Origin: Hondaea fermentalgiana
Lineage: Eukaryota > Sar > Bigyra > Thraustochytrida > Thraustochytriidae
Assembly: GCA_014084085.1 (NCBI GenBank)
Contig: NPFB01000001.1
Coordinates: 17,526 to 81,525, forward strand
Direction of reading: 5' to 3'
DNA length: 64,000 nt
The stretch's first letter is position 1. Each line of letters opens with the position of its first letter. The notes under the pieces are model-generated. The model did no database searches. It worked only from the letters and a program-made list of their open reading frames with translations, and had not been told where the DNA came from. Positions 32,892-64,000 of the stretch are shown here, piece by piece. The position numbers and the translations under genes were made by a program.

Positions 32892-32944
<53 letters not shown>
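32892..32944. repeat. (CTTG)n microsatellite at contig end
   Basis: About 13 uninterrupted CTTG units running into the N gap; assembly probably stopped in this repeat. Confidence 0.92.
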
Positions 32945-36434: not shown

Positions 36435-36821
36435 ATATGTTTGAATGAATACATTTGGGAATGAAAATAACTTTAGCCTTGATCTCGTCATTGGCCTTGC
36501 AAGAAATGAACGCTTCGTGCTCGGGTGACCCGAAAGATCAGCTTCAAGCTGGCTGGGCGATGTCGTATTCCTCAACCACTTGGGTTTCGCACCTCACTTG
36601 TGTTCCGCAACCACTTGGGTTCCGCAGCTCGCCAATGCCAGCGCGACAACATCCATCGCTGGAGGATCTTGGTATTATACGTAAACAGCAAACCCGCAAC
36701 AGGTTGCCACGCCGATATATCTTGTGTGAGAGCAAACGCTTCGAAGCGCCGTAGGATTCTGCGAGCGGGCGCTGGTGGTGAGCGCGCTCAAAGAATCTAC
36801 AAGACCGAAAGTTTCGGCGCG
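36435..36821. other. Short spacer between tandem ankyrin genes
   Basis: About 390 bases between the stop of the first and the ATG of the second ankyrin gene. It holds the second copy of the 49-base conserved element (36582-36630). The frame of the second gene stays open through most of it, but this part does not align with the first gene's protein. Confidence 0.7.
36582..36630 (+). promoter_or_regulatory. Conserved 49-base upstream element, copy 2
   Basis: Identical to the reverse complement of 17971-18019. Built of three near-copies of CACTTGGGTTCCGCA at 17-18 base spacing. It ends 192 bases upstream of the ATG at 36822, against 227 bases for copy 1. Confidence 0.7.
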
Positions 36822-39800
36822 ATGGAGAATCTTGTAGCCAATGAAGACCTCGCGGGAATTCGCGCCGCTGTACAACAGGACGCCAAGCTGCTGGAATGGA
36901 TTCCCAAGCCGCTGCATCACGCAAGCCGACAAGGCCTAGATAAGGTCATGGAGGTCCTTCTCGACCTCGGCGCGAACGTTGCTTCCGAGGAGAACGGCAT
37001 CACTGCCCTTTCCGTGGCTTGCACAAATGGACACGTGGACGCCGCGCGCTTGCTCCTTGATCGTGGAGCAGACGTAAATTACAGTGGATACTCCGACGAG
37101 TTTCCTCTTCTAGGAGCGTGCCGCGAGGGTCACATTGAGATTGTCCGGATGCTTCTTGATCGTGGAGCACACGTAAATATCTGTGAATACTCTGACGAGT
37201 GTCCTCTTCTGGGAGCGTGTCGCGAGGGTCACATTGAGGTTGTCCGGATGCTTCTCAATCGTGATGATAAGATCCAGAATCGCGAAAAGGCCTTAGGAAT
37301 CGCTGTCGAAAAGAAGAATGCAGACCTTGCTCGCCTCTTTGTGCAGCACGGTATGAATTTCGAGTGCCTGCGCAACCCCTTTGACTATGTCGGGGAGGAC
37401 CATAACGAGGATCCGTATTTTTGGCCTAAGCGAGAACTTACTCTTGTCGGAAGGGCTGGTGAGGAAGAGCAAAGTCAAGAGATGATTGAGCTTTTCCTTG
37501 ATCATGGCGGAGGCAACGTTGATGACGTGGACAGAGATGAATTCACAGCGCTGAAGTATGCTTGTCTCCGCGGGCAATACAAGCTTGCTAAATTTCTCAT
37601 CGAGCGTGGTGCCGAAATCAGTTTTGACCCAGATGGCACGGACTATACGTCTCCGCTCATAATCGCATGCGAACAAAGTCACGAATCAATTGTGGAGCTC
37701 CTTCTCGACCATGGGGCACACACAGATGCGCCGTACGGACGCGATACCCCTCTTATGATCACGTGCGAAAATGGTGCCATGGTCAGCTTCAAGAAGCTTC
37801 TCACGTGTGACGATGTTTGCATAGATGAGCAGAATAGAGACGGCTGCACGGCGCTTATGATTGCTTGCGCCAATGGTCACCTCGAAATGGTCAAGCTTCT
37901 TCTCAAGAGGGGCGCCGAGGTGGATATGCAGGACCACAAAGGGCGCAGAGCGCTGGCGTACAGTGCGAACGAAGCGTGCATCCAATGTCTCCTCGAGCAT
38001 AGTGTACGGCTCGGACCTCGCGCTATCAGCGATGAGGAACTCCTGGGCATCGTGAGCTCGAGAGGATGTACGAGCATGGTGAAGGAACTTCTCGAGAAAG
38101 GGGTCAACGTTAACTGCAAGGATCGCGGTGGTTTTACCCCCCTCATGCGAGCTGCCTCTGGCACAACTTACGCGAAAGCGAAAACGCTTGAAAACAAGAA
38201 TTTCGTGACCATCGCGAAGTCACTTGTCAGTCAAGGCGCAGAGGTGAACGCCGTAAATAAAAGGGGTCAAACAGCTCTGGAGTTGACTGCCTGCAAGAAC
38301 TTGGCTCACTTTCTACTCGACCAGGGTGCGACGTATGACCCTAGTCATACGGGTGTGTATTCTATATTTAGTCGATCATGCGAGGAGGGCTGGGTGGATC
38401 TCACTCGCCGATGCCTCCAGCAAGTGCACAAGTCGGACGCGAGCAAAAACATGATGGATTGTCTTGTAGATGCTTGCAGAAATCAAAGGACTGAAATCGT
38501 GAAGCTGCTTCTCGACAACGGAGCTGATCCCAAGGCCGGATTCGAAAACTGGAGAAAGAAGGCCTGGCTTCTAAAGGAAGTTTGTGTTGGTAAGGTCAAC
38601 AATCACAAGTTGGACCTTGTTCAGCTCCTTCTTCAGAGCTACGTATGCTCAAATGTCAAAGACAAAACCGCCGTCGCTTGTGCCCTTCATGGTGCCTATG
38701 AAGTGGGAGATTTAGAAACTGCTAGACTGCTCGTTCAGCATGGAGCTGACGTCGACTCGCAGTGCGAAGCTGTCTCTACGTGCTTGATGAAAGCCTGCCA
38801 AAGAGGAGACCTTGCGGTTGTTCGCTGTTTTTTGGAGTTCGGAGCAAATGTGAATCAACAGAACAATGACGACTGCACAGCACTCATGCTGGCATGCAAT
38901 ATTGGCCAAGACGACATGGTTTGTTTACTCCTTGATCAAGGCGCAGAGGTCAATCAGCAAACGTCTAACGGCTGGAGCGCGCTACATATCGCAGCTTGTG
39001 GTGGAAACGTAAAGCTCGTACAATCGCTTCTGAATCGTGGTGCTGCTGTAAATCTACAGACCAAGCAAGGATGGACGTCTCTCATGTCAGCAAGCGACAG
39101 CGGTAACATGGAAATTGCGGAGCTCCTTTTGCAGCACGGCGCAAAGCCTGAAATGCAGCTCTTTGATGAACCAGTTTGCTCTCATTCTTGGTTCACTTCT
39201 ATGCGATTCATGCACTGGAAGCGATACGGGGAGATGTGCACAGCGCTCTCCATTGCATGCAAAATGGGGAACGAGCGGGTCGTCCAGTTGCTTCTGGCAC
39301 ACGTAGACGCCGTTCGAGCGAGCGGCGCTTCAGATCTTGCAACTGCCTATCTCTGTGAAAAGTTCGCTCTGGTAGATTTATTCCGCCGACATGGCTTTGG
39401 AGTGAACCTTGCAGATTCGCGGGGTCGAACAGTGCTGATGCAAGCGATTGGGGGAAGCATGTCATCTCACAGGAGGGGTCATCCATCCGCACCTGCTGCT
39501 GTCAAGACTTTGCTCGATCACGGCGCTGATCTGCACGCTCGGGACAAGAATGGCGCAACAGCGCTTTTCTTGGCGATTGACTTGAACGCTCGTCTCCGGC
39601 ATCAATGCGAGAAGACGGCCTCTCTTCTTCTAACAGGGGGTGCTGATCCAAACACTCAAGACAGCAAAGGCACATCGCCTCTGATGCGCGCTTGCTTTTG
39701 TGGTTCTATGACCATGGTTCACTTTCTTATCAAGCGCGGCGCCAAGCTCGACATGCAAGACGGGTCCAACACCACTGCTCTCATGCATGCAGCTCGAGAA

Positions 39801-40178
39801 GGACACATTGATATCGTCCAAACGCTCATTCATTATGGCGCAAAAGTCGATGTGCGCGAAGGGTCCATGCTCCTCTTTCACGTCGCTGTCAATGTGCAAC
39901 GTCGCTCGTCAGATGATATCCACGAGACGATGAAATTGCTTGTTCAACGGGGAGCCCGCATGGATTTTTCATGTCTCAAGAGCAAAAGAGCACAAACGGC
40001 ACTCAAGATTGTTTATGATGCTGGGTTCGTGGAGGTCGTCGACCTGTTCACTGCGCCCAGGATGTCCAACTCTGCCTTGAAAATTGTCGCAGACTCTCGA
40101 GAAGGAAATGCTAAGCGAAACTTGACGCTGGAAGATGGCAGCCCTTCGAAAAGAGTGCGAATGGACGATTATTATTAG
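36822..40178 (+). CDS. Large ankyrin-repeat protein, tandem paralogue
   Basis: 1118 aa. The ATG at 36822 is chosen because 'MENLVANEDLAGIRAAV' aligns with the start at 17744; the frame is open to 36525, but that extension translates the 49-base element and is not conserved. The body is a long ankyrin array, e.g. 'CTALMIACANGHLEMVKLLLKRGAEVDMQ', 'GWSALHIAACGGNVKLVQSLLNRGAAVN' and 'SPLMRACFCGSMTMVHFLIKRGAKLDMQ'. Two adjacent 99-base units (37056-37154, 37155-37253) are near-identical and represent an extra ankyrin repeat absent from the sister gene. The C-terminal 'DFSCLKSKRAQTALKIVYDAGFVEVVDL' block is shared; the end 'SPSKRVRMDDYY' contains a possible nuclear signal. It probably acts as a scaffold or target-binding protein; the partner is unknown. 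Confidence 0.92.
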   Translation: MENLVANEDLAGIRAAVQQDAKLLEWIPKPLHHASRQGLDKVMEVLLDLGANVASEENGITALSVACTNGHVDAARLLLDRGADVNYSGYSDEFPLLGACREGHIEIVRMLLDRGAHVNICEYSDECPLLGACREGHIEVVRMLLNRDDKIQNREKALGIAVEKKNADLARLFVQHGMNFECLRNPFDYVGEDHNEDPYFWPKRELTLVGRAGEEEQSQEMIELFLDHGGGNVDDVDRDEFTALKYACLRGQYKLAKFLIERGAEISFDPDGTDYTSPLIIACEQSHESIVELLLDHGAHTDAPYGRDTPLMITCENGAMVSFKKLLTCDDVCIDEQNRDGCTALMIACANGHLEMVKLLLKRGAEVDMQDHKGRRALAYSANEACIQCLLEHSVRLGPRAISDEELLGIVSSRGCTSMVKELLEKGVNVNCKDRGGFTPLMRAASGTTYAKAKTLENKNFVTIAKSLVSQGAEVNAVNKRGQTALELTACKNLAHFLLDQGATYDPSHTGVYSIFSRSCEEGWVDLTRRCLQQVHKSDASKNMMDCLVDACRNQRTEIVKLLLDNGADPKAGFENWRKKAWLLKEVCVGKVNNHKLDLVQLLLQSYVCSNVKDKTAVACALHGAYEVGDLETARLLVQHGADVDSQCEAVSTCLMKACQRGDLAVVRCFLEFGANVNQQNNDDCTALMLACNIGQDDMVCLLLDQGAEVNQQTSNGWSALHIAACGGNVKLVQSLLNRGAAVNLQTKQGWTSLMSASDSGNMEIAELLLQHGAKPEMQLFDEPVCSHSWFTSMRFMHWKRYGEMCTALSIACKMGNERVVQLLLAHVDAVRASGASDLATAYLCEKFALVDLFRRHGFGVNLADSRGRTVLMQAIGGSMSSHRRGHPSAPAAVKTLLDHGADLHARDKNGATALFLAIDLNARLRHQCEKTASLLLTGGADPNTQDSKGTSPLMRACFCGSMTMVHFLIKRGAKLDMQDGSNTTALMHAAREGHIDIVQTLIHYGAKVDVREGSMLLFHVAVNVQRRSSDDIHETMKLLVQRGARMDFSCLKSKRAQTALKIVYDAGFVEVVDLFTAPRMSNSALKIVADSREGNAKRNLTLEDGSPSKRVRMDDYY
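37056..37253 (+). repeat. In-frame 99-base tandem duplication inside the ankyrin gene
   Basis: Two 99-base units, each encoding one 33-residue ankyrin repeat (unit 1 with 'NYSGYSDEFPLLGACREGHIEIV', unit 2 with 'NICEYSDECPLLGACREGHIEVV'). The sister gene has a single unit here. This shows growth of the array by whole-repeat duplication. Confidence 0.88.
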
Positions 40179-47998: not shown

Positions 47999-50179
47999 TC
48001 ATTCGCTGCTTCGCGGAGCTAGACATGAAAACATGAGGGAGCGCTGAAGTCCATCAGGTCTTGACCAGTACGTAATGACGTTACTCTCGTCCACATCCGG
48101 ACAGAAGCTTGACTTGATATCCTCTTCGTCCCATTCTGCTCCGTTAGGTTCGTCCAAATTCATGTCCGCGACGAGAATATGAGTTTTGGTCGCTGTCCGT
48201 GTTTCGACAACCTTTTTCCAATACCAAACCTCGTTTTTGATGCGATAAATTTTGCCAGAATCGCCGGACCACTCACCATTGATCGCTATAAAATCGGGAT
48301 CCGTGAGCAGACCAATGATACTGGCGTTGCATTTGTTAAGCTCCGTCGAAATAAAGAGCGGCTGGGAAGCAATGACCCAGGTTCCTAAAATAACATACTC
48401 GAGATTTTCGGTCATTGGAGATGGAGACAGTTCAGGTTTGATACCGCTCATCAGTCGGTACGTGTTTGTGTCGTAATCATAGTTGCAGATTTCGAGCACA
48501 TCACCATACGACCATCCAGAAAATGGTCCTGTCTCTTCTTGGAACATACTAAAGGCCTTCATAGCATCCAAGATGCGCGAACCCCACGGGCGAATATCCA
48601 AGAAGGATCTATGGTACCGGGCGACACTTGAACAGAAGGAATCGAAGTTCTTCTGGCCCAACTTCTTGTAGTTAAATTTATGAAGTTTGCCGCCGTTGTT
48701 TTTTTTTTTGATGTTGTTACACTGGTACCGGCAGTTCTCAACTTCGAGCTCCGGAAAATGGTCTTCGATCGTGTCGTGCCAAAATTCGATGAGCTTCTGT
48801 TCGTCTTGTTTGTAACCGCTAGGGAGAGTGCCACAGGCATCAATTTTGAGAATATCGATGCTCCAGTTCTTGTACATTTTCACATCTCGTACCACGAGAT
48901 CTTCAAAGTTGTCATCATCCCGGAATCGAAGTTCGGAGCATGTTTCTGTTCCCCCGGGAGTATACCAGGAGACGAGAAAACCTCTATTGTGCAGCTGGGA
49001 AACATAGTTGTTCGGGCCGGTCATTCCTGAAGTAATACAGCCAATCGGTTCGAACATGTCCGACGTTGAAGTGTATGAAGTGCCTTCCTCCAAGTTGGTT
49101 CGCAATGCAAATGTGTTGGTCGCGTCGACCGAAGCAAAGGTACACTGCCCGTCTGTATGAACAATATTGAAGCCGGCGTCCTGAAGACCGTACTCTTCGA
49201 GAAGATCGACTTGCTCCATGATGAGACTCTCACTTGCGTAGCGATAGAAGGCGTTCCACGAGCTCCAACCGCGCGGAGGACGCTTACTTTCAGCATTGAC
49301 AAAGAGATATGTCTTTTTCTCCGACTCTGTTGTCTTGCAATCACTCAGTAAAGTGCACGAGCCCGTCTTTGACTGCCAAACAGCTGCTTTCGCAGTCGCG
49401 TTGACGAGATTGAAACACTCGGACTCGTCGTTTGTTAGCATATGGCCAAGAGTGTCACCCTTGTCGCTGCACTCGGTGTTCTTGAAAATGTACAAATCGC
49501 GCTCCGAGTCGAACGTCACATCTGGAAATGACTCAAGAACTGTTTTTGTAGAATCTGATGTTGAAGAGCCCTCATGCTCAGGGACCTTGTACACCACAGA
49601 TGTCTTTTGGTTTCTCGTGGCGTCCCGAACGGAGCAATCCGTAAACCGCGAGCACCTACTTTTCTGGTCAAGGCGAATATACTTGCAGTTTGCCGAGTCC
49701 TCATAGCAGTACTCGAGACACTCGGCGACAGTCTTGCCCTTCCCAGATCTCGCATACTGCTTTCGTTTGCAAGTCGAGCTCAAGTAAGAGGTGAGGTTAC
49801 TCAGACCGTCGAAGCTCTCGCGCGCAAAGACAGAGCCGCCCTGCACTCCATCTTGCAAATCGCAGTACTTGTACAAGGCGCAGAATCCAAGCTCGTTGTG
49901 GACAGCAGCCACGCATTCGCTGTCGCTATAGCACTCGTTCAAGCATTCATCGACTGTCTGCTCCGTAGCAGGACGAAGGATGTACTTGTCGTTTGGATTG
50001 TAGCACTTCATCGCCGGCATCTCCGTGAAGAATTCCGCGATGGATGAAGCTGCTGCCGCCGCTCCAATCAGGCTGGCCAACATGGAGAACCATGCAGGCC
50101 CCAGCGCCCGGAGGGCCCCTCGGTCATTTCTAGCCATTCCACGCCTCGATCTTCGAGACCACGCCAATGTAGTACTCAT
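47999..50179 (-). CDS. GH27 alpha-galactosidase-like protein with three PAN-like domains, copy 1
   Basis: 726 aa from the ATG at 50179; an ATG 14 codons later (50137) is equally plausible. A hydrophobic segment 'MLASLIGAAAAASS' near residues 33-46 acts as signal or anchor. Three Cys-rich PAN/Apple-like units follow (about 59-120, 137-198 and 226-294). The GH27 TIM-barrel begins at 'RGWSSWNAFYRY' (about 303-313, family motif GWNSW). It has 'DILKIDACG' with the predicted nucleophile Asp447 and 'WVIASQPLFISTELN'. The family hydrolyses terminal alpha-galactose or alpha-N-acetylgalactosamine; several replaced residues make substrate uncertain. PAN modules suggest carbohydrate or protein binding at the cell surface. 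It is a close relative of the gene at 52882-54972, but its DNA is AT-richer. Confidence 0.87.
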   Translation of the reverse strand: MSTTLAWSRRSRRGMARNDRGALRALGPAWFSMLASLIGAAAAASSIAEFFTEMPAMKCYNPNDKYILRPATEQTVDECLNECYSDSECVAAVHNELGFCALYKYCDLQDGVQGGSVFARESFDGLSNLTSYLSSTCKRKQYARSGKGKTVAECLEYCYEDSANCKYIRLDQKSRCSRFTDCSVRDATRNQKTSVVYKVPEHEGSSTSDSTKTVLESFPDVTFDSERDLYIFKNTECSDKGDTLGHMLTNDESECFNLVNATAKAAVWQSKTGSCTLLSDCKTTESEKKTYLFVNAESKRPPRGWSSWNAFYRYASESLIMEQVDLLEEYGLQDAGFNIVHTDGQCTFASVDATNTFALRTNLEEGTSYTSTSDMFEPIGCITSGMTGPNNYVSQLHNRGFLVSWYTPGGTETCSELRFRDDDNFEDLVVRDVKMYKNWSIDILKIDACGTLPSGYKQDEQKLIEFWHDTIEDHFPELEVENCRYQCNNIKKKNNGGKLHKFNYKKLGQKNFDSFCSSVARYHRSFLDIRPWGSRILDAMKAFSMFQEETGPFSGWSYGDVLEICNYDYDTNTYRLMSGIKPELSPSPMTENLEYVILGTWVIASQPLFISTELNKCNASIIGLLTDPDFIAINGEWSGDSGKIYRIKNEVWYWKKVVETRTATKTHILVADMNLDEPNGAEWDEEDIKSSFCPDVDESNVITYWSRPDGLQRSLMFSCLAPRSSE

Positions 50180-51254
50180 GCAGCAGCGAGGCAGCGGTGT
50201 CTCGCCAACGATCGTCTCGGGTCTGCTCGTTTATGCGCGCGCCGCACTTGCCTCGACTGCTACTGGCCAAAGAGGGTAGGGCGACGTCTGCTCACCTCAA
50301 TCACCTCGCTGTAATGTGCGCGTGCTCGCTCGACGTCTTGGTGGACCGACTCTGACCATCAAGATAACTAGCACAAAGCAGCCTGGAATGTCAATGGCAA
50401 TGGAAGTGCAGGGGCCACCAGCCCCGCACGTGATCATAGAGGCTGACTGGCTTCAATCCGGCTGGCTGGTGGCAGTCACTGCCATCGCTTTGGCTCCACC
50501 ATTGCCTGCACTTGCAGCGGCCAGCTTGCTTGCAGCGCAGCGCAGCTTGATGAATGTCGTGTGCAGACTTCAGTTCGATTCGAAGGCCCGCCTGTGCCTA
50601 TTCCTGCCTGATTCTGACCGTCTGCTTGCGTACCACGACGTTGGTCTCACGTCAGTCGCTCGCGATGGATGGTAGCCACGGCCCTGGAAACCAAATCAAC
50701 TTGAAAGCACTCGCTTCTGACTGCAGCGGCAGAGCGCGAGTCGGAGGTGATTCGATCCACATGCCATCACAAGTGTGTGCTCATCAAGTTGATCGATCAA
50801 TCACACGTGACTCACCATCACTTCCTCTCGCTCGTATACTCGCTTGCCAGCTTCGGCAGACCGAGACTTGTCTCCCTCACAGCCAGCTAACCAATGGTCT
50901 CCCGCGGCTCTCACCTACTGCCGCCAGCGGCAGCGGGCTCTTGCGCACGTGCGATGCAACACGGGGAAAAGCAAAGCCGAGCAGAGCAGAGCAAAGCAAA
51001 GCGATGTGATGGCTCTATCTCGCCCCATGCGTCAGGGGCGTCATCGCAAGCGAGCGCCACGGCAACTCTGCGTCGCCATCGTCTCGTCATGGCCGCAGAG
51101 CACAGGCAGAGAAGGGCGGCTCGTGCCACGCGAGTCGCCGGGAGAAAGTATGATCGGCCCGGGCGGCACGGCGTGCCGACCGTGACTTGCGGGAAGAGTC
51201 TCCTTGCGGCCAGCACGCGCGCCGCGCACGGGAAGTGACGCGAGGTTGATGCGG

Positions 51255-52881: not shown

Positions 52882-54972
52882 TTAGCTGCGCGGCTCTGAG
52901 CAGGTGAAGAAGATCGAACGCTGGAGCTCTTCAGGTCGGGACCAAAAGGTGTGCACACTTAGACCCTCAGCTTCGCCGCAATGAAGAGCGACAAGAGCAG
53001 CTTGATCCCATGCATCACCGGCGACCGTCTCTAGGTTCATGTCGGCGAGAAGGACGTGCGTCTTCTTTGCGTCACGCGTCTCGACGACCTTTTTCCAGGT
53101 CCAGACGTCATCTTCAATGTCAACAATCTTTCCAGAGTCTCCGGACCACTCGCCATTCACGGCAAGAAGCGCGCTGTCTGTGAGGGCATCAATGACTTCC
53201 TCGGCGCAATTGCTGATGTCAGTTGAGACAAAAAGCGGCTGCGAAGCGATTGCCCACGCGCCGATCATCAGAAATTCGAGATTTCGGGTCAGAGGGCCCG
53301 CCGCTGTCGATGGCTGGACCCCACTCGCAATACGGTACGGGTTATTGTCGTAATCGGTGTTGCAGACTTCGAGCGTGTCGCCATACGACCAGCCAAACAT
53401 CGGCCCGGTCTCCTCTTGAAACATGGAGAATGCCTTCATTGCCATCTTAATGCGAGAGGCCCAGGGCCGCACATCGACGTACGAGCGATGGAAGCGCGCC
53501 GCGTCAGGACACGCACCCTGAAAGTTTAACTTGCCCAACGCGGTGTAATCAAAGACCTTCACCTCTGCATCAGGATGCGCTTCGTTGATCCAACCGTCAA
53601 TGTTGTTGCAGGCAAAGCGGCAGTTCTCAACCTCAAGAGCCGGAAAGTGCTCTTCAATCACTTGGCCCCAGTACTTGATGACCTTGAGTTCAGTGTTCAA
53701 TTTGTCTGTCCGAGGAAGCAGTCCGCAACGATCGATTTTAAGAATGTCAATACCCCAGGACTTGTATGTCTTGACGTCGTTTACCACAAGAGCTTTGTAG
53801 TTGGCCTTGCTACGAAAGTTGTGGTTCGCACAGGAAGTGAGGGATCCAGGAGTGTACCAAGATACGCGAAAGCCCTTGTTGTGAAGTTTTTCAACGTAGC
53901 CATTCGGTCCTGTCATGCCAGATACGATGCAGTCCGTTGGTTCGACGAGCTGCGAGTCGGCTGTGTAGTCAAGCCCGTTCATATTCGTGCGCAAGGCCGT
54001 CACGCCATCACTCGCCATGTTGGCAAAGGTGCAGAGACCATCTGTATGAATGATGTCATACCCGGAGCTCAGAAAATGTTCCTCGACAAGATCGACCTGC
54101 TCCATGATGAGATCTTCTGTGGCTTCCCGAAAGAATGCATTCCAGGAACTCCACCCGCGCCCAGGGCGTTTGCTCACAGCATCGACAAAGAGATACGAGT
54201 CTTCGGATGATGTCGTGGCGTCGCATTTGGCAAAGGTCTCGCATAGTCCTGTCGATGGCGTCCACGTCCAAGCCTTGGCAGTGTCTTCCTCCAGAGCGTG
54301 GCACGCGGCTTCGGAGGGTACGATACTCGAGGCAAGCACATCTTGTCCTTGGCATGTGGAGTCCTTAAAAATGTACTTGTTGAGATCGGAGTCGAAGGTG
54401 GTGGCCGGCAAATTCGGGAGGTCGCTGTCGATGGGCTCGGATGCCTCTGTCACTTCATAGAGAACCGACGTCTTTTGCTTGCCTGTGGCGTCTTTGATTG
54501 TGCACTTGGTGAAACGCGAGCACTTGCGGACTCTGTTCAGTCGAATGAACTTGCAGTCCTTGGAGTCTTTGCGACAGAGCTCGAGGCACTCGGCGACAGT
54601 TTTGTCTCGACCCGAAGTTGAATACGGGCTCTCCTTGCAGGTGGAGCTGAGGTGCGGAATGAGGTCCTCGTCTCCGCTGTCAAAGGTGTCCCGGGCCCAC
54701 ACAAAGGAGTCGTCGCTGGCATCCATCAAGTCGCAGAACTTGAACTTGGCGCACTTGCCTGCGTCATTCTCTACGACGGCCATGCAGTCATCATTAGCGT
54801 GGCACTCTTCAAGGCAGATTTCTACTGCCTGCTCCTTGGCGGTGCCGATGATATACTTGTTGTTTGGGTTGTAGCATTTCTTGGCGGTAAGCTTGCTGTA
54901 TTCGTCCACCGTCGCCGCAGAAGCGGCTGCGATGCTCGCAAGCACGGCCACGAAGCGAAGCGCGCAAACCAT
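52882..54972 (-). CDS. GH27 alpha-galactosidase-like protein with three PAN-like domains, copy 2
   Basis: 696 aa. The ATG at 54972 opens a clear signal peptide (1-19, 'VAVLASIAAASA'). Three PAN-like Cys-rich units lie at about 33-98, 112-175 and 195-262. The GH27 domain starts 'RGWSSWNAFFREATEDLIMEQ' (GWSSWN 273-278), contains 'FRVSWYTPGS' and 'DILKIDRCG' with predicted nucleophile Asp414, and 'FGWSYGDTLEVCNTDYD', which corresponds to the family's NDPDML region but is altered. 'AIASQPLFVSTDISN' and 'LLAVNGEWSGDSG' mark the end of the barrel. Domain order matches the gene at 47999-50179, so the two arose by tandem duplication. It is predicted to be secreted. Catalytic competence is likely but the acid/base Asp was not placed with certainty. 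Confidence 0.88.
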   Translation of the reverse strand: MVCALRFVAVLASIAAASAATVDEYSKLTAKKCYNPNNKYIIGTAKEQAVEICLEECHANDDCMAVVENDAGKCAKFKFCDLMDASDDSFVWARDTFDSGDEDLIPHLSSTCKESPYSTSGRDKTVAECLELCRKDSKDCKFIRLNRVRKCSRFTKCTIKDATGKQKTSVLYEVTEASEPIDSDLPNLPATTFDSDLNKYIFKDSTCQGQDVLASSIVPSEAACHALEEDTAKAWTWTPSTGLCETFAKCDATTSSEDSYLFVDAVSKRPGRGWSSWNAFFREATEDLIMEQVDLVEEHFLSSGYDIIHTDGLCTFANMASDGVTALRTNMNGLDYTADSQLVEPTDCIVSGMTGPNGYVEKLHNKGFRVSWYTPGSLTSCANHNFRSKANYKALVVNDVKTYKSWGIDILKIDRCGLLPRTDKLNTELKVIKYWGQVIEEHFPALEVENCRFACNNIDGWINEAHPDAEVKVFDYTALGKLNFQGACPDAARFHRSYVDVRPWASRIKMAMKAFSMFQEETGPMFGWSYGDTLEVCNTDYDNNPYRIASGVQPSTAAGPLTRNLEFLMIGAWAIASQPLFVSTDISNCAEEVIDALTDSALLAVNGEWSGDSGKIVDIEDDVWTWKKVVETRDAKKTHVLLADMNLETVAGDAWDQAALVALHCGEAEGLSVHTFWSRPEELQRSIFFTCSEPRS

Positions 54973-55681
54973 GGTGTGTTTGTGCTTGGGCTTGTGGTTG
55001 TGCTTGCTCGGTCTTGGTCAGGTCGTTTGTCTTTCTCTGTTGCGGGTTTGCTTTGGCGGCAATGCTTGCCAATTTTCTCCGCGAGCAAGAAAATCCACGC
55101 TGCGAAGGTATGTGTAACAGCGTGCATGCACGTCTTTTCGTACGTTCTCTATCACAAAAGCTGCGCAGAGCTACGGAGAATTTACGTGACTTCGTCCTGC
55201 TTCTCGGTCCGTCGAGAATCACAACATGATCTAGCTCGTGCGCGAGTTCATTTCTTGCTGCGAGAAAAGATTGCTGGTCAAGGAAATCGGCTCGCCTCCC
55301 AAATGCCCAGCTTCAAGCATAAAAGAGAAATTGAAAAGAGGGTCACGGACGCTCTGTTCATGCTGGCTCGTGGTATGGCGGAATGCGGAACTTGCCGTCC
55401 ATTAAAAATGCTAGCAAAGGTCGTGGCACAGTCATAGGCGTCCGGCCCATTTGCCTTTGTTCAGATTCCCTTTTTCGGCTCAGCCCAGCGCAGCCGCAAA
55501 TTGCGTAGCGCCGCGGTGTGCTGCGCTGCGCCGCGGCCGTGAGCACATACATTTTTCGCCTACCTCAGGTACGAGAGCACACGCCGCGCAATTTATCGCG
55601 TGTGCGATTCAGCCAGAAGACCAGTCCGTCTGTGCCTTCTATTTTGACGTCTTGCCTCGCCTCCTCCCGCCTCGAGCGCGC

Positions 55682-55722
55682 CGTCAGCGTCAGCGTCGGC
55701 GTCGGCGTCGGCGTCGCCATTT
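55682..55722. repeat. (GTCGGC)n hexamer array
   Basis: About six units of GTCAGC/GTCGGC. Confidence 0.85.
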
Positions 55723-56783
55723 TCGCGGCAGTGTGTTGCGACTAAGCTGGGCGGAACGCTTTCACAACGGAAAAAAGTACTGCAGCGATAGATTTCGGAA
55801 CGTCTCTGGATTGCCATCACTGCCATCTCTATTATTTCCGCACGCGCTGGCGAGTGGAGGTGGGACGGTGCCAAGACAGAGAGAGAGAGGGAGAAAGAGT
55901 ATGCTCACAGTCAGTGGCGCGCATGCACCTCGCTTCGAGCTTGCGTGCGAGATTTTCCTGGATGGAAGAACTGTCAAAGTCTTAATGTTTAACTTCCTGA
56001 ACAGGAATTTGCGCAATTTTAAAGAAGGTGACGCTCTCTTGATGAAGCCGCTCTGGCCGATTATTCCCGAGCACGTGCTCTGCGAGATGGGTTGCTTTTC
56101 CCTACCTCATGTCAGTCAAAGGTGGCGTCGGCGACAAAAGTAGCGTCGGCGTGACGTCAGATTTTGTCGTCTTTTGACTCTGTTGACAGGCACTGCAAGA
56201 CCTTGCGGCACGTTTCACTCGTAGTTTCAAGAAGAGAAAGCGAAAGGGAGCACAAGTATGGTACGCGGTACGTATACATACGGATATTCTCAGGTCGTGC
56301 TTGATTGCAAGATAAGAACGCCACCCAACCTTGAAGATGGAAAAAGGATCGGAAAACTTGTTCAGCCAACAATCTGCCGCACAATAAATTGCCGCGCAAA
56401 TGCAATGGATTTCGCTGAGAACCATCATTAAACCGATCGTGCTTCACGGACAATATTACGTACAAAGAAGCGCCGTACGCTACGTGCGACAATTGGGGCT
56501 CCTTTTGCCTAGATGAAGCCTGGGCTTACATGTCGAGATGTGCAAGCGTCAATGATTCATAACTCGTGAACAACCCATACGCTCTTTGATCTCAAACTGC
56601 TTTTTGACAGTGTCGTACAGGCTCAACCGATGTTTCACATTGTTTGAGAAAAGAGAGACCTGATTTACCTTTTTTGGCGAGATTTGCTCTTTTCCAGAAC
56701 AGGATCAACTGCAAGGTAGGGTATTGCGTTCAAAGATCCAGGCCTCGCCGTGTAGGGGCGCCAGAACAATCGATCTTCTTCAG

Positions 56784-56806
56784 GTATGCATGCATGCATG
56801 CATGCA
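56784..56806. repeat. (ATGC)n microsatellite
   Basis: Five perfect self-complementary ATGC units. Confidence 0.88.
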
Positions 56807-57124
56807 GTGCAGGCACTGACGAAAACGGAACAAGCTAGCAAGACCACCCACCTCACATTCGAGAGCGAGCACACGACTCGAACACAACCATTTTTGGAAC
56901 ACAGATGTATACACATGAATGCAAACGACTTCGTCGTTTTTGTCGATGGGGCCTCCGATCATTCATTCAAGTGCCGCGTTCGATCGAGTGCAATTTCGTT
57001 TCGTTTGGCGAATAGGCGCCAGGACATTTGATGCAGCAAACATGCATGATGTGCGGGCAACGGCGAAACACAAACAAGTTAGGAAGATGACGAGCTGCAC
57101 GATCAAGAGCGAGCACGCGACTTG

Positions 57125-57350
57125 ACTGTGAGCACACGACTCAAGTTTCTAACTCGGGCACATAACTCAAGCACACAAGTTCACAAGACTGTTCGACAGC
57201 AGAACTCAAGCACACGACTCGAGATCATCACAACTCGAACGCACGACTCGAGATCACAACTTGAGCACACGACTCGAGATCATCACAACTTGAGCACACG
57301 ACTTGAGATCACAAGCCGAACGCACGACTCGAGATCACAACTTGAGCACG
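57125..57350. repeat. Minisatellite of 23-29 base units with CTCGAG cores
   Basis: Degenerate units of the form CACGACTCGAGATCACAACT followed by TGAG, or AAGCACACGACTC variants. About five well-preserved units lie at 57208-57348 and more diverged ones to the left. Unit lengths alternate by a 3-5 base ATC insertion. Each unit holds a CTCGAG palindrome and ends in CTTGAG. Confidence 0.85.
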
Positions 57351-59186
57351 TCTGCATGTCTGATCATGAGAAGGTGAACGACTTTGACGTTGCATAGAGC
57401 TTGCAATGAGATCTCCGAGTGTTCGAATGGCGCGCTTTCGTATCATTTTGTAGCGTGTGCGACGAAGAAGGCGAACTCGCAGCCTTGTAAAAAGCACGTT
57501 GAGCATATCGCCATAGCTACTTCGAGTCGAACAATAAGTCTCAGTCCTTGCATTGCATAAAAGCGCGTCTTGACCTCGACCTCTTCTGCTCATTGGCTAG
57601 ACTCCGATGCTCCTCGCATCACCCCGCGCAGCACCCTACCCCACCACTGGTCTCATCATCCGACATCTGCGATTGATGATCAATCCCGATGCTGACCGCT
57701 TGCCCCCACGTCTGGGCGCTGTCCCGACCTCTTGTCCGGTCAGGCCTGGAAGGCTGGCGAGGCTTGCCGGGCGGCCAGACATTGCGCAATCATTGTCCTA
57801 TCGCGACGCCATCGTCAGCATCTCACTTTTGTTGGGGGATTAGTCGCGCGCTGACCAGGGACAGCACGACTCCAGTGCCCGCGCCTCCCCTTCCCCCTCT
57901 CGCTTCATATCTCCCACCCTCCACCCCTCGCTCGCGCCGCGGCAGCTGCGCTCGAGACTCGCAGCTCCAGGTCGCGTGGAGGATGTGAGCAAGCGCCAGC
58001 GCTGCAAGATCAAGATCAAGTTCAAGACCAAGATTAATATAATAAACCAAGACCATGCCCGACGTCCGCGAGGCTCGGCCTGGCCAAGATTCGCTCCACC
58101 ATCGTCGTGACGCTCGTCGGTCACCTCGTCAATCAAGGCCGCGAGATTTGGATTTTCCGTTCCTGCATTCGACGGCCGAGGCCTCGCCGCCTTCCTCGCT
58201 CGCCTCGCCCAGCGCAGCATCGCAGACGTTGCTTTCCAACCAGGCTCGCGCGACTCGCTGACGCGGGCCGCCTTCGCATTCCATCTCGAGGCCTCCGCTT
58301 CCACGCTTCAGCGGCTCGAGGGCCGCGTCCCTCGCTCGCCTCGACGCCACATCCGACTTGAGCACGTCGCGGTCGCGATCTGCATGTTCTTCGTCGTCCT
58401 CGAGCACCTCGCCCTGCCGAAGGCGTCCGGCTTCTGCTGGGTCTCATCGTCCGCGCGCGACGGCATCGACGCTTCGCATCTTGCCGATCAAACTTAGATC
58501 CATTGCATCTCCGCACTTTTCCAACACCCTCGCTGTCGGTCGCAGGACGAAGGAATGAAGAAATGACCTCGCCTCGCCGCCGCCTCTCGCGCGTCTTCTC
58601 CTGCTCTTCCCCGCGCCCTGGCCTCGCCTCGAGGCGCCTCGAGTTGAGTTGCGTCGGTCGAGTTGCGTCGCGTCGCGTCGAGTCGGGTCGCGGGCTCGCA
58701 GTACCGGCCTCGCTGGCAGCCACCCGTTCTTGTCTGCGCGACTTCCTTTTAGCGCGCACCTGCATTTTTTCTTTCCTTTTCCGCATGGCGAGTGAGTCCT
58801 CTTCCTCTCCCTTTCACATCCCTCGCGCGCTTCCCGCTCGCTCCTCTCCAGCCAAGGCGCGCGCTCCTCGACCGCGATGCCGGCCTCGGGTTGGGGAGAC
58901 AGGACGCGAGAAATGCAAGTCGAGTCGCACGAGTCGGGGCGGGTGGAGCGAGGAGGCGAGTTATTCTTTCTTAGCGCGTTACGCGCCGCTAACAGGCTAC
59001 TATAGTATAACCAGCCCAACGAGATGCCACTGGGGAAAGAACTCACTAATACCCGGACGACGCAGCTGCGCGGTGCAGGCCAGGCCGCCCGCGGGAGGCA
59101 CGCAGTTTCTTCTTTCGCGCGCGCGGGCGGGCGTCGAGCCTCGTGTCCGCCTGCCTGCCTGCGTCTTCTGGCCTCGGAATCGAGTG

Positions 59187-59220
59187 GAATGGAGAGGAAT
59201 GGCATGGAATGGAATGGAAT
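59187..59220. repeat. (GGAAT)n pentamer array
   Basis: About six GGAAT/GGCAT units; similar in sequence to the GGAAT satellites of other eukaryotes, but short and isolated. Confidence 0.8.
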
Positions 59221-59679
59221 CTGAGAAAGAAATCGAAACTCGCGGGTGCTGCCTGCGAGGCGAGCGGCGCCCACAGTGACGCCGCTGCGGGGCGTCATCG
59301 TTCGTGGAACGAGTCTCCTCGGGACCGCACTCGCGGCGCGACGCCGCGCGACGCTACGCGACCCTCGCTCGCCTCGCGACTCTCACTCGCCTCGCTCGCC
59401 CCGCGCCTCCTCCGTCCGCGTCCGCAGGTCTGCGCAGCGCGTGCGAGCGTGTGCGCTGGAGAGGCAGGTACTGACCTGACAGTGAGAGAGAGGTAAAGAA
59501 AGAGGCGGTGTTCGTTCGTCTGCTTGTTGATCCTCCGCGGGGTTTCGTTCATAGATTCGTCCACCGCCGACCCCTGCGAGCGACCACCGTCCATCCATTC
59601 GCTGCCCCGGCCGAGCTTTCGAGCGGTCATCCGTTGCTCGCGGGGCTCCTCGGCTTGCAACAACCAGCCACCGCCGCTG

Positions 59680-59735
59680 CCTGCCTGCCAGCCAGCCAGG
59701 CGGCCAGGCAGCCAGCCAGGCCGGCCGGCTGGGCA
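59680..59735. repeat. GCCT/CCAG microsatellite cluster
   Basis: CTGCCTGCCTGCC followed by CCAGCCAGC and GGCCGG blocks, about 320 bases before the megasynthase start. Confidence 0.85.
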
Positions 59736-60053
59736 ATGGCATGTGGCTTGCAGCGCAGCGCAGGACAGGGCGAGGAAGAGGATCTCGGAAGAGAGGGAGG
59801 ACTCAGGCCGCGGTGGGGCGCCTTACATTTCCATGGAAGGTCACCTTTGGCCGGCGCTTACATAAAGTAGGACAATCGAAATCCATCGGCCGCAGAGATC
59901 ATCCGGCGAGGGCGAAGCAAACCTGCTTGATCGTAGCTGACGCGACCGCGACGGCGACGGCGAGCTTTGCGAAGGAGAGGAGGAGGAGTTCAAGAGAAGA
60001 GACGGAGATTGAGAGTGAGATTGGTCGAGCGAGAGAGACCCCCAGCCAAGACG

Positions 60054-63000
60054 ATGACGAGCGTACTCGTGTTCTCCGGCGTGGGCAGCGTCAGCGCCGA
60101 GACGGCGCAAGTCATGGAAAAGATGCTCGGCGTCGAGCACGTTGATGCCGTTGCAGAGCGCCTCGAGCAGGAGCACGGCGTGCAGCTCCGCGAGGTGCTC
60201 CAGCGCGTGCGCACGGCGCCCGAAAGCCTTACCGCCCTCGAAGAAATCGTGGCGCAGCTCGTCGTGCAGCTCGGCGCCGCCCAAATTGCCCGCAGCGCCC
60301 TCGGACCCGAGGCCGAGATTGTCGTCGTCGGCCATAGCATCGGTGAGCTCGCTGCCGCCGTTGTGGCCGGCCACCTCTCGCCCGCCGAGGCCGTCGACGC
60401 CGCCGTCTGCCTCGCCCACGTGACCGGATCCGAGCAAGGAGGCCTCGTCTACGGCACCCTCGGCCCCCAGGACCAGGTCGCTTCTCTCAACCACGTTGAC
60501 GAGGACGGCGCCGACGTTGGCGCTGCCATCATCCTTGGCGACGAGGCCGCAATCGAGGCCGACAGCCGCTCCAAGGTGCATACCGGATTTCCCTGGCACG
60601 CCTCCGTCTACGAGTCCCACGAGTGGCGCAAGCTGCCTGCGCGCCCAGCTGGGTCGGCCGATGGCAAGAACCTCCCGCTGGCACTTTCCTTGCTCGGTGG
60701 ATTCGGAAATGACGAAGAGAACATGACGCTCTTTGACGATGAGTACTGGGCCCGTTGGACCCACACGGGCGTTGATTTGGCCAAGACCCTTGCGGCTGTC
60801 CAGGAGCGCTGCGCCGGCAAAATCGCCCGCGTCGTAGAGCTCGGCGCGCACCCCATTCTCGCGCCCTCCCTGCGCCGTGCCTTTGGACCCGACAGTCCTG
60901 CTCCGCGTGCCATGGTCGACCGCCAGCGCGGTCTCCACCTCGACGCCTGGCGCGAGATTGTTGGCGCCACGCAGGGTGCCGGTGTGCTGGCTGCACTCCG
61001 CGAGGCCTTTCCCGTGGCCCTCGATATGGACGCCACCTGGCTCGAGAGTGGGCTCGCCAGCGCCGACATTGTGCAGGGCGCCGCCAAGCTGCACCGCAGC
61101 GGCGTCTTCGTGGGCCTCAAGGCCCACGACTTTTACCGGCACGTGACCCCGCAAGACCTCATTGAACGCTTTGGCGAGGTCGCCGGTGCCAAGACTGCCG
61201 AGGGTACATCCGCTGCTGCTGAGAGCGCCTCCGAGAGCGCCATCTCCGCTTCAGGCGCTCGTCCTCGTGTGGTCATCCGCGCCATGAGCTGCCTGTTGCC
61301 GGCCAACATCAAGTCGCCGGCACAGCTGTTCGCGTTCACGTCGTCGCAGGGCGACGCTGTGCGCTTCGACGCGGGCTTTGACGGCGGCAAGCGCGCAGCT
61401 GCCTTTCTCGGGGATCTGACGCTGGACTGCGCCAAGTTCGGAATCTCGCAAGGCGAGGCCCAGACTCTGGACCCGCAACAGGCACTCGTGCTCTCGTGCG
61501 TGGACAAGCTTCTCACTGAGCATGGTATCGAGCAGCTTCCCGTGCGCACCGGCGTCTACATTGGCGCCTGGAACTCGGAGTTTGCCGGCGACCGCTCCTC
61601 GGTCTTTTACCCGACGGGCACCAACCCGAGCATCATCGCCGCGCGCGTCAGCCACGTCTACCGCCTCCACGGTCCTTGCAAGGTCATCAACTCCGCCTGC
61701 GCCTCCTCGCTCGACGCTGTGCTCGAGGCCCAGCGCGACCTCGCCGCCGGCACCATCGATGCCGCCATTGCCGGTGGCGTCAACCTGCTCTGGGACCCCG
61801 CCTTCTCCACCTGCATGGCGCAGTCCGGCTTCCTCGCCCCCGGTGCGCGCTGCCGCTCCTTTGACTCTAGCGCCGACGGCTACGTGCGCAGTGAAGGCGC
61901 CGCGCTCGTGCTGCTCCAGCGCCGCGAGCCCAAGAACTCGGATGCTCTCAACGGCTCTGACGCCGGCAAGGTCAACAATGACGACTGCGAGCCGTATTAC
62001 GCCGAGGTGCTCGGCGGCGCCTCCAACCAGAATGGTGGCCGCGGCGCGAGCCTGACCGCGCCCAGCCCGGCCGCTCAGGAGGAGTGCATTGCGGCGGCTC
62101 TGCGCGCGGCGCGCGTGGATGCTGGCGAGGTGGACTTTGTCGAGTGCCACGGTACCGGCACGAAGCTCGGCGATCCGATCGAATGGAGCGCTCTCAAGGC
62201 TGCCGTGGGCACGTCCCGGTCGGCGGACCGTCCCTGCTACCTGGCGAGCGTCAAGAGCAGCCTCGGCCATCTCGAGGCCGCCGCCGGCGTCGCAGGTTTG
62301 CTGCACGCAGCCATGGTGCTCTCGCGCCAGGAAGTTCCGCGCATGGCCAACTTTGTCGAGGCCAACCCGCTTCTGGAACCCTGCGAGGGTCTTCGCCTCG
62401 CCGCCGACGCCAACGTCCGCCCTGACCAGCCGCTCCGTGTCGCTGGCGTCTCCTCCTTTGGCTTTGGCGGCAGCAACGTCCACATCTTGCTTCGTGCCGC
62501 GCCGCAGCAGCTCTTGCCCAAGCCGCTTCCGCCCGTTGCCGCCCCCGCCAAGGAGCGCAACAGCAACAGCAAGGTCTTTGTCTTTGACCGTACGCAGCAA
62601 CGCGCCCAGATTCTCGAGCAGCAGCAGCAAATGCAGCAAATGCAGAAACTGCAGCGAATGCAATTGCAGCACGAACCCGCGCAGCAGGTTTCCTCCGCCG
62701 CCCACGAGGACGCGAGCATGCAGCAGACCGTCATGGAGCAGATTTTCTGGGACGTTGTGAGCTCCGTCGCTGGCCAGGTCTCCCCCGAGGCGCAGATTCT
62801 TCAGAGCGGCGTCGACTCGCTTGGCCTCACCGAACTTTTCTTGCGCATCGAGCAAAAGATGGCCGTCGAGGCTTCCTCGCTCAGCGACTTTCTCGGCGGT
62901 GGCTATACCTGGGCCGACCTTCGTGAGAAGATCATGCAGTCTGCCAAGATCGCCCCCAGTGAGATCTCGCGCGCGCAGGCCACTGCTGCGCCGACCCCTG

Positions 63001-64000
63001 TTCCCGCCGTCGCGCCGCAGGCCAAACGTCAGTCGGCCCGCGCACCCGAATCCGAGCGCGAGGATTCTGTGCCGGATGCTTTTACCTGGGCTGTCCCGCG
63101 TTTCGATGGTCTTATCCGGACTACTCACGTCGGCTCGCTTCCGCGTCCCCGTGAGCCGGAGCAGCAGTACAAGGAGCTCCACAAGATCATTCAGACCCAG
63201 CTCAGCATCGGTATTAGCATCATCAATGACGGCGAGGCCGGCCGCATGGACTACGTCACCTCGGCGCTCACGCGCATGTCCGGCTTCGAAGAGCAGGACG
63301 AATCCGTCGCGCCGCAGCCGCTCGACCTCGAGGATTTGCCCTGCCTCGCGCGCCGCTTCCTCGTTCGCGCGGGTCTCATCACGCTCAACAAGAGCGTGCG
63401 CACGTGCAACCCGCACTGCATCGGCGAGGTCACCTACACGGGCCAAAAGGCCCTCGAGCGCGAGCTCCAGACCGTGCAGCGCGCCATGCGCCTCTGCAAC
63501 GCTGGACTTCCCGGTCAGGCCTTTTACTCTGCGCCCTCCCCCGGCACGCTCGCCATGTTCTTCAACAATGATGCCCCTGAGGTCTACCCCACCTACGAGG
63601 AGTACCTCGGCGCGGTGGCCGACGCGATGCACGTCGAGTACGCCACGATCGTTCGTCATGGTTTCACGCTCCAGGTCGACTGCCCCGATCTTGCCATGTC
63701 GCGTCACACGCGCTTCAAGCACCTTGGTCTCATGGCCTGGAAGCGCATCGCCCGCATGCACGTCAAGATGCTCAACCGTGCGCTCGAAGGCATTCCTCGC
63801 GAGGCTGTACGCGTCCACGTCTGCTGGGGCAACTACCCGGGCACGCATCACCGCGACGTGAGCGCGCGCGAGGTCATGCCCATTGCTTTTGGTATCAACG
63901 CTGGTGGCTTTGGATTTGAGACCGCCAACCACCGCCACAACGCCGACGCCGGCGCGCTTCTGGACGTGGACATTCCCAAGGACGTTGATCTGTACCCGGG
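60054..64000 (+). CDS. AT-KS-ACP polyketide/fatty-acid synthase fused to a MetE-like methyltransferase domain (3' end outside window)
   Basis: 1315 codons without a stop to the window edge. The ATG at 60054 is the first after an in-frame TGA 36 bases upstream. Domains in order: an acyltransferase (about 1-310) with the nucleophile Ser95 in 'VVGHSIGEL', His182 in 'GFPWHAS' and 'ELGAHPILAPSLRRAF'; a ketosynthase (about 395-835) with Cys549 in 'INSACASSLDAV', His699 in 'ECHGTGTKLGDPIE', His739 in 'SVKSSLGHLEAAAG' and 'SSFGFGGSNVH'; a Gln/Met linker (about 850-885); a carrier protein (about 890-960) with Ser922 in 'SGVDSLGLTEL'; a linker; then a MetE-like domain from about 1020 ('IRTTHVGSLPRPREP', 'IINDGEAGR'), with zinc-ligand candidates His1255 and Cys1257 in 'VHVCWGNYPG' and Glu1289 in 'GFGFETANH'. 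Type I synthases build acyl chains in the cytosol; MetE-like enzymes transfer methyl groups to thiols. The combination and order (AT before KS) are unusual. The product is unknown. No signal peptide is seen. Confidence 0.92.
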   Translation, partial: MTSVLVFSGVGSVSAETAQVMEKMLGVEHVDAVAERLEQEHGVQLREVLQRVRTAPESLTALEEIVAQLVVQLGAAQIARSALGPEAEIVVVGHSIGELAAAVVAGHLSPAEAVDAAVCLAHVTGSEQGGLVYGTLGPQDQVASLNHVDEDGADVGAAIILGDEAAIEADSRSKVHTGFPWHASVYESHEWRKLPARPAGSADGKNLPLALSLLGGFGNDEENMTLFDDEYWARWTHTGVDLAKTLAAVQERCAGKIARVVELGAHPILAPSLRRAFGPDSPAPRAMVDRQRGLHLDAWREIVGATQGAGVLAALREAFPVALDMDATWLESGLASADIVQGAAKLHRSGVFVGLKAHDFYRHVTPQDLIERFGEVAGAKTAEGTSAAAESASESAISASGARPRVVIRAMSCLLPANIKSPAQLFAFTSSQGDAVRFDAGFDGGKRAAAFLGDLTLDCAKFGISQGEAQTLDPQQALVLSCVDKLLTEHGIEQLPVRTGVYIGAWNSEFAGDRSSVFYPTGTNPSIIAARVSHVYRLHGPCKVINSACASSLDAVLEAQRDLAAGTIDAAIAGGVNLLWDPAFSTCMAQSGFLAPGARCRSFDSSADGYVRSEGAALVLLQRREPKNSDALNGSDAGKVNNDDCEPYYAEVLGGASNQNGGRGASLTAPSPAAQEECIAAALRAARVDAGEVDFVECHGTGTKLGDPIEWSALKAAVGTSRSADRPCYLASVKSSLGHLEAAAGVAGLLHAAMVLSRQEVPRMANFVEANPLLEPCEGLRLAADANVRPDQPLRVAGVSSFGFGGSNVHILLRAAPQQLLPKPLPPVAAPAKERNSNSKVFVFDRTQQRAQILEQQQQMQQMQKLQRMQLQHEPAQQVSSAAHEDASMQQTVMEQIFWDVVSSVAGQVSPEAQILQSGVDSLGLTELFLRIEQKMAVEASSLSDFLGGGYTWADLREKIMQSAKIAPSEISRAQATAAPTPVPAVAPQAKRQSARAPESEREDSVPDAFTWAVPRFDGLIRTTHVGSLPRPREPEQQYKELHKIIQTQLSIGISIINDGEAGRMDYVTSALTRMSGFEEQDESVAPQPLDLEDLPCLARRFLVRAGLITLNKSVRTCNPHCIGEVTYTGQKALERELQTVQRAMRLCNAGLPGQAFYSAPSPGTLAMFFNNDAPEVYPTYEEYLGAVADAMHVEYATIVRHGFTLQVDCPDLAMSRHTRFKHLGLMAWKRIARMHVKMLNRALEGIPREAVRVHVCWGNYPGTHHRDVSAREVMPIAFGINAGGFGFETANHRHNADAGALLDVDIPKDVDLYP

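Follow-up and report, generated by a model that had tools for sequence, protein, structure and literature searches.

Domain Layout of the Predicted Synthase

The window analysed here, a stretch of 64,000 nucleotides of the Hondaea fermentalgiana genome (G000:C1:17526-81525; 36.0 Mb in 238 contigs), ends in a gene for a predicted protein of 1999 aa, P0001, in which an acyltransferase (AT), a ketosynthase (KS), an acyl carrier protein (ACP), a domain resembling the methionine synthase MetE and a flavin oxidoreductase follow each other on one polypeptide. Inspection of the open reading frames (ORFs) showed that the ATG at position 60054 of the + strand opens a single frame without interruption to the end of the window, in agreement with the original prediction, drawn from the letters of the window, of an AT-KS-ACP unit fused in frame to a MetE-like domain. 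When the gene was extended past 64000, as had been advised, the same frame remained open for 2053 further bases, including the stop codon at G000:C1:83576-83578 (66051-66053 in the extended window numbering), which gives a coding frame of 5997 bases excluding the stop and adds the flavin domain. The MetE-like domain is therefore present, but not as the C-terminal domain that it had been taken for: a flavin/NADP oxidoreductase follows it beyond the window and, being part of the same protein, must enter any mechanism. The limits of the five domains, set with purpose-built domain models, were as follows:

60054..64000, + strand, continuing past the window to G000:C1:83576-83578: whole-protein coding sequence, single open frame, 1999 aa.
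60066..60953, + strand, residues 5-300: AT (Pfam, domain model, alignment to solved ATs).
61245..62504, + strand, residues 398-817: KS (Pfam, domain model).
62712..62945, + strand, residues 887-964: ACP (Pfam, domain model).
62946..63113, + strand: linker between ACP and MetE-like domain, in frame and open.
63114..64000, + strand, residues 1021-1387, ending at the equivalent of 64214 beyond the window: MetE-like (core methionine synthase-like) domain.
G000:C1:82109-83575 (64584-66050 in the extended numbering), + strand, residues 1511-1999: flavin/NADP oxidoreductase domain, outside the window.

The Pfam search, also suggested beforehand, returned the AT, the KS and the carrier, with matches to ketoacyl-synt (E 3.1e-42), Ketoacyl-synt_C (2.8e-37) and Acyl_transf_1 (6.1e-11) and weaker ones to KAsynt_C_assoc (1.8e-8) and PP-binding (2e-5), whilst the C-terminus matched FAD/NAD domains (Pyr_redox_2, NAD_binding_8, FMO-like). 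The isolated MetE-like domain is divergent and fell marginally below the cut-off of PF01717 (20.9 bits versus 21, E 2.5e-4), the sole family that it matched at E up to 1; it also matched the solved MetE-like protein 1ypx (E 7.9e-7). This part takes up about 370 aa after the ACP, and the N-terminal folate-binding half of MetE was not found. No ketoreductase, dehydratase, enoylreductase or thioesterase was found in P0001 by the Pfam search, a weak ketoreductase match (E 0.047) overlapping the NADP motif of the flavin domain. Judging from these domains, the synthase seems equipped to prime, to condense and to hold a beta-ketoacyl chain, with nothing found to reduce it. A search of the Hondaea genome showed that the flavin part occurs once in it.

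Conserved Active-Site Residues

Residues of the MetE-like domain of P0001 were placed by profile alignment to 3rpd, 1ypx and a plant MetE. For 3rpd, the author numbering was inferred to differ by three from that of the chain, and the plant MetE alignment places the H-x-C region otherwise than the other two. The positions, given with those in the preceding domains and all on the + strand, are:

60336-60338: AT nucleophile Ser95 (GHSIGE).
60597-60599: AT His182.
61698-61700: KS Cys549.
62148-62150: KS His699.
62268-62270: KS His739.
62817-62819: ACP phosphopantetheine Ser922 (DSL).
63120: start of the MetE-like opening TTHVGSLPRP.
63135: MetE-like Ser1028.
63234: MetE-like Glu1061.
63678: MetE-like Asp1209.
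63816-63824: MetE-like H-x-C, with His1255 at 63816 and Cys1257 at 63822.
63918: MetE-like Glu1289.
64110 equivalent, just past the window: MetE-like Cys1353, the fourth zinc ligand.

The KS Cys-His-His and the DSL serine of the ACP, both called from the window, were thus found together with the AT Ser-His pair on one chain in P0001; among the other aligned KS and AT rows, some do not include the stretch or do not fit the simple pattern. The TTHVGSLPRP opening, the H-x-C and the downstream Glu proposed for the MetE-like part were likewise recovered, and all four zinc ligands are kept. According to the text of PMC7857596, the zinc ligands of E. coli MetE are H641, C643, E665 and C726 and its substrate residues S433, E484 and D599, those of MesD (3RPD) being S22, E73 and D188. 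Zinc ligands H1255, C1257, E1289 and C1353 were present in 48/48 aligned sequences of the family, as were E1061 and D1209 of the homocysteine-type clamp, and S1028 was present in 41/41 (seven rows start after it). These residue counts, like the MetE-plus-flavin tree described below, exclude P0006, P0016, P0041 and P0043-P0046. The thiol chemistry that had been proposed for this domain is supported by its residues; the conserved Ser/Glu/Asp clamp, however, suggests that the thiol bound by the zinc is that of a homocysteine-like amino acid, and neither that of pantetheine nor coenzyme M. The position after GVIDT, held in MetE by a catalytic His, is T, S, C, K or R in this family.

Regarding the AT, 54 rows were examined, 35 of them bearing the motif, and at the position where solved ATs of polyketide synthases (PKS) have an Arg, 34 of these 35 have another residue (Leu in P0001), the sole exception being P0029, a split AT. 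The FAD GxGxxG and NADP GxGAFA motifs of the flavin domain were found in 48/48 sequences. The fingerprint of class B monooxygenases (flavin-containing monooxygenases, FMO, and Baeyer-Villiger monooxygenases, BVMO), FxGxxxHxxx(W/Y/F), was found in 0/48, and the best solved relatives, steroid and phenylacetone monooxygenases (E 3.6e-15 and 4.8e-12), matched in their N-terminal part only. The alignments support an intact zinc and substrate site in the MetE-like domain and intact AT, KS, ACP and FAD/NADP motifs.

The Same Fusion in Other Protists

A homologue search with residues 1000-1999 of P0001 gave 46 proteins, P0001 included. Domain models detected MetE-like and flavin domains together in 43 of them and AT, KS, MetE-like and flavin domains on one chain in 29, so fusion orthologues, which had been suggested as a check, do exist; the ACP model missed many carriers for which precomputed Pfam lists PP-binding. 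By their record names, the full fusions include proteins from Amoebophrya A25 and A120, Symbiodinium CCMP2592 ("PKS40") and Cladocopium goreaui, and also from Polarella glacialis, Effrenium voratum, Chrysophaeum taylorii and a gene model labelled symbB. A record of Emiliania huxleyi corresponds to a carrier-MetE-flavin protein without AT-KS, and P0019 bears a name that marks its transcriptome origin. A metagenomic contig of 6759 bases encodes P0006, which is 2225 aa long and in which the MetE-flavin pair occurs twice in tandem.

A second search, from the dinoflagellate side, returned 59 proteins, 16 of them new. Six (P0167, P0169-P0173) carry AT, KS, MetE and flavin domains, one is KS-MetE-flavin, one is MetE-flavin, and two (P0175, P0182) are AT-KS-ACP proteins with a MetE match and no flavin match. 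The remaining six (P0176-P0181) are without MetE and combine a KS with a flavin domain of this type, which stands immediately after the KS in P0176-P0180. Both searches score proteins of similar length only, and free-standing flavoproteins lie outside their scope.

These results bear on the possibility that neighbouring genes were joined artificially, by an assembly join near 63050 or by a missed intron or stop. The 5997-base frame is open, and a join is unlikely because other assemblies and the transcriptome-named P0019 show this fusion too; we consider the chance of such an artefact negligible and rejected it.

A Three-Gene Form in Bacteria

Genome contigs were scanned with a profile of the family alignment. 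Among the best 80 loci, three carry MetE or flavin parts, the rest matching the KS region. These three belong to the Olavius-associated "proteobacterium Delta 1" (L003), to "Deltaproteobacteria bacterium isolate MAG100" (L004) and to Desulfofustis sp. (L005). In the first two, AT-KS-ACP, MetE-like (about 380 aa) and flavin (about 610 aa) proteins are encoded by separate, adjoining genes; in the third, the flavin gene lies at the contig end.

Within the order of MAG100, the MetE gene was detected in 9 of 291 genomes at 62-100% identity, including those of L003 and L004, known beforehand from the contig scan, and in all nine the AT-KS-ACP, MetE-like and flavin genes adjoin. A 167-codon frame is interposed within the set of L103. 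In the order of Desulfofustis, the flavin gene was found in 3 of 257 genomes (L113, L112, L005), L113 presenting the complete set and L112 the flavin gene and the start of MetE at a contig end. Altogether, the set is complete in 10/12 genomes, and in the other two it stops at contig ends. In three of the nine (L103, L105, L106) and in L113, the MetE gene runs in the opposite direction, so the linkage goes beyond one shared transcript. In samples of the phylum, the flavin gene appeared in 1/395 genomes, namely MAG100's own, and in 0/198 of an overlapping sample that contained no known positive; the MetE gene appeared in 2/247, and in one of these genomes, G124 (41% identity), the rest of the set was not nearby. 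This latter MetE-like gene (L097), 39-41% identical to the family, is a possible outgroup for rooting; AT-KS and flavin matches were absent within 19.9 kb around it.

The stand-alone bacterial MetE-like proteins are 42% identical to the P0001 domain and pass the cut-off of PF01717 (52.8 and 55.5 bits), the only family that they match at E up to 0.01. This has a bearing on another explanation, a type I PKS or fatty-acid-like synthase of the ordinary kind whose MetE-like part would have a structural or docking role without catalysis. The divergence of this domain in P0001, marginally under the PF01717 cut-off, would fit such a role, but the zinc and substrate residues are the same in eukaryotic and bacterial sequences that are about 40% identical, and in bacteria the MetE-like part is a gene of its own. 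A structural-only MetE-like domain is unlikely, and we regard an ordinary synthase of this kind as very improbable. The fused chain appears instead to be equivalent to the bacterial three-gene set.

In G493, the domain models gave no ACP match on the AT-KS frame, and in L004 (12650-13117) the AT-KS-ACP gene ends in a second carrier domain interrupted by an in-frame stop, which may be real or a sequencing error. A phosphopantetheinyl transferase (PPTase) gene directly follows the flavin gene in L005, and an alpha/beta hydrolase is encoded upstream of the set in L102 and L104, the two being 58% identical to each other. No further shared neighbour gene was seen at the bacterial loci, as judged by eye and with no clustering made. 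Two Vibrio nigripulchritudo plasmids (NZ_AP027051.1, NZ_AP027054.1) showed a weak match to the bacterial flavin protein (25.8% identity, E 1e-30), falling under a gene annotated as SDR family oxidoreductase.

A search with the bacterial MetE gave 7440 matches, and among the best 120 of them two bacterial proteins (P0075, P0133) are named epoxyalkane-coenzyme M transferase. Together with the alpha/beta hydrolase adjoining the gene set at two loci, these names would suit a reaction like that of epoxyalkane:coenzyme M transferase, with an epoxide or other electrophile made by the flavin domain, opened by a small non-amino-acid thiol, and with the resulting sulfur-containing acid hydrolysed off. 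Nevertheless, most of the named proteins among the same best 120 are called methionine synthase or MetE methyltransferase, these names being probably automatic, and the class B fingerprint is missing from the flavin domain. The conserved amino-acid clamp also seems to favour another thiol over the one suggested by the names of two records, so we consider this explanation unlikely.

Trees and Direction of Evolution

In the MetE-plus-flavin tree of 48 sequences, the bacteria were split from all the fused sequences with a support of 1.0, and the fused forms fell into two clades. The window gene grouped with P0002-P0005, beside a clade of Amoebophrya and metagenomic sequences, and the other clade contained the dinoflagellate, Emiliania and Chrysophaeum sequences. 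In the KS tree, drawn with bacteria outermost, the bacteria did not group together, G623 being closest to the fused forms (support 0.934). When the flavin tree was rooted by the distant KS-flavin proteins, the bacteria joined the clade of the window gene inside the fused forms (0.996), although as a group they had a support of only 0.524. With these differences among the trees, either direction, from split to fusion or from fusion to split, may apply: there may have been two separate fusion events, the bacteria may carry genes that descend from a fused form by splitting, or the root may be misplaced by the long branch of the outgroup.

Proposed Mechanism

Our preferred reading, which we put forward tentatively, is that the protein may be a thiotemplate synthase that forms carbon–sulfur bonds. 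The AT, without the carboxylate-binding Arg, would prime the KS with a non-carboxylated acyl group, and the KS would condense it with malonyl-ACP delivered in trans. The flavin domain would then oxidise the unreduced beta-ketoacyl chain on the carrier, whilst the MetE-like barrel would hold zinc and a homocysteine-like amino acid, the thiolate of which would attack either the chain once oxidised or a group that leaves it. This would yield a thioether amino acid of the S-alkyl-homocysteine type, methionine being the smallest case, and the transfer to the thiol could free the carrier, so that no thioesterase would be needed. The steps that follow the condensation are ones that we infer. Speaking for this reading are the recurrence of the fusion (29 of 46 proteins and 6 of the 16 new ones), the linked bacterial genes, the conserved zinc ligands, clamp and FAD/NADP motifs, the flavin domains of P0176-P0181, the AT without its Arg and the PPTase gene of L005.

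With MetH (E 7.8e-105) present in the Hondaea genome, this protein need not be required for ordinary methionine synthesis. For this reason routine methionine is a less likely product than a specialised one, and housekeeping methionine synthesis is disfavoured as its main role. A conventional MetE was not seen in the PF01717 search of the genome, which also missed this divergent domain.

Several points weigh against carbon–sulfur bond formation as described above. The flavin oxidation is a guess, because the domain is without the FMO/Baeyer-Villiger fingerprint, and the domain could be a dehydrogenase; moreover, the bacterial carriers, relatives of the sulfate reducers, which are mostly anaerobes, fit ill with an oxygenase. 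The limitation of the homologue searches to similar lengths weakens the case, drawn from P0176-P0181, for a flavin step on a carrier-bound chain and, as free-standing flavoproteins could not be shown by them, it lowered our judgement of this reading from evenly balanced to slightly below. With respect to the AT, an Arg lies one position earlier in 4/35 sequences (P0002, G002, G522, G623), and the meaning given to the missing Arg presumes that it binds the malonyl carboxylate. No PPTase gene was found at the 11 other bacterial loci tested, and the alpha/beta hydrolase of L102 and L104 is a possible release enzyme. Finally, the substrate, product and activity of the synthase are all predicted ones.

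A bolder variant, which we hold to be distinctly unlikely, is the carrier-tethered alkylation of homocysteine without folate or B12. Here, an acetyl or other acyl group would be condensed onto malonyl-ACP, the flavin domain would turn the ketone into an alkyl ester by inserting an oxygen beside it, and the zinc-bound homocysteine would take the alkyl group, restoring malonyl-ACP. This would explain why reductive and release domains are missing and why the AT has lost its Arg. If this were true, an acyl group would be turned into a sulfur-bound alkyl group, so that neither methyl folate nor cobalamin nor S-adenosylmethionine would be needed to make methionine or S-alkyl-homocysteines, and the polyketide machinery would serve as a catalytic handle. 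Counting against it are the missing Baeyer-Villiger fingerprint (0/48), the migration preference that such oxidations usually show, and the anaerobic life of the bacterial carriers.

Sulfonium chemistry offers another explanation, with a starter like dimethylsulfoniopropionate (DMSP) or a methylthio starter, a gonyol-like extension by the KS and demethylation of the sulfonium onto homocysteine by the MetE-like domain. The eukaryotic carriers include groups known to produce DMSP, which would agree with it. A precedent is described in the text of PMC7496086, where the bacterial BurA, a hybrid of non-ribosomal peptide synthetase and PKS, extends DMSP to gonyol, a phytoplankton compound for which the algal enzymes were unknown to its authors. 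BurA, however, uses an adenylation domain and a ketoreductase according to the same text (PMC7496086), neither of which was found in P0001, and we judge this origin improbable for the Hondaea protein.

Genome Surroundings

Nine neighbouring frames, seven in the window and two downstream, were compared with Pfam, and they gave matches to melibiase/PAN, ankyrin, trypsin-like, PARP and Myb, two being without match, by which a gene cluster around the synthase was rejected. A viral origin was also discarded, as two scans of viral contigs gave no relative, and no RNA family reached the gathering score at 55000-64000. Other features of the window and of the genome are:

13649-16924, - strand: frame of 1092 codons, PARP catalytic domain match.
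32547-36431 and 36510-40175, + strand: adjoining frames of 1295 and 1222 codons, rich in ankyrin repeats.
48002-50230 and 52885-55017, - strand: Melibiase_2 matches, possibly a small local family; the first frame also has a PAN-like domain.
G000:C161:227930-238831: four KS matches in a 5708-codon open frame, another large megasynthase in the genome.

Significance and Comparison with Known Systems

The presence of the same parts, fused in protists and as separate neighbours in some bacteria, points to an undescribed route to carbon–sulfur compounds. The enzyme is conserved in several protist groups, judging by record names as a full fusion in dinoflagellates, Amoebophrya and Chrysophaeum and as the carrier-MetE-flavin form in Emiliania, and it joins polyketide assembly to zinc chemistry of the methionine-synthase type. 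If it does make carbon–sulfur bonds, organosulfur compounds not yet characterised might come from it, and with the bacterial three-gene form the enzyme can be tested in a laboratory host. A synthase with this architecture was not found in the titles and abstracts of the open-access papers screened (subscription papers and preprints being outside this scope), in agreement with the earlier statement that no described one was known.

The usual order of a type I PKS module is KS-AT-ACP. The Hondaea protein shares the KS, AT and ACP active-site residues with such modules and differs from them in its AT-KS-ACP order, in an AT without the expected Arg, in having no ketoreductase, dehydratase, enoylreductase or thioesterase found, and in the MetE-like and flavin domains that come after the ACP. 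The same AT-KS-carrier order was described for symbB1.v1.2.039083.t1 of Symbiodinium minutum, a protein of 980 aa for which no MetE or flavin domain is reported in the main text of PMC4647583. The words methionine, flavin and monooxygenase are absent from that main text and from that of PMC4661987, which surveys the type I PKS of algae.

The flavin domain shares two Rossmann motifs (FAD, NADP) with the class B monooxygenases and matches PDB 8odw ("Polyketide synthase modules-related protein") with an E of 2.6e-9. In common with 8odw and with P0176-P0181, it is a flavin domain related to Baeyer-Villiger enzymes and FMO that lies in or near a KS-containing synthase, whereas here a MetE-like domain precedes it and the class B fingerprint is found in none of the 48 sequences.

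Full-length folate-dependent MetE has an N-terminal folate-binding half that was not found here. The closest comparison is with the core, folate-independent methionine synthases MesA-MesD, especially MesD (3RPD), which likewise have no folate-binding half and share the four zinc ligands, as MetE does, and the Ser/Glu/Asp amino-acid clamp, as given in the text of PMC7857596. By its site residues, the MetE-like domain would thus resemble a core methionine synthase, yet we do not class it as one because its scores lie far under the curated models: the bacterial relatives fall more than 200 bits below each listed curated NCBIfam methionine-synthase cut-off (69 and 80 bits against 406 for PRK04326). 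In contrast to the core enzymes, it is fused or linked here to an AT-KS-ACP unit and to a flavin oxidoreductase.

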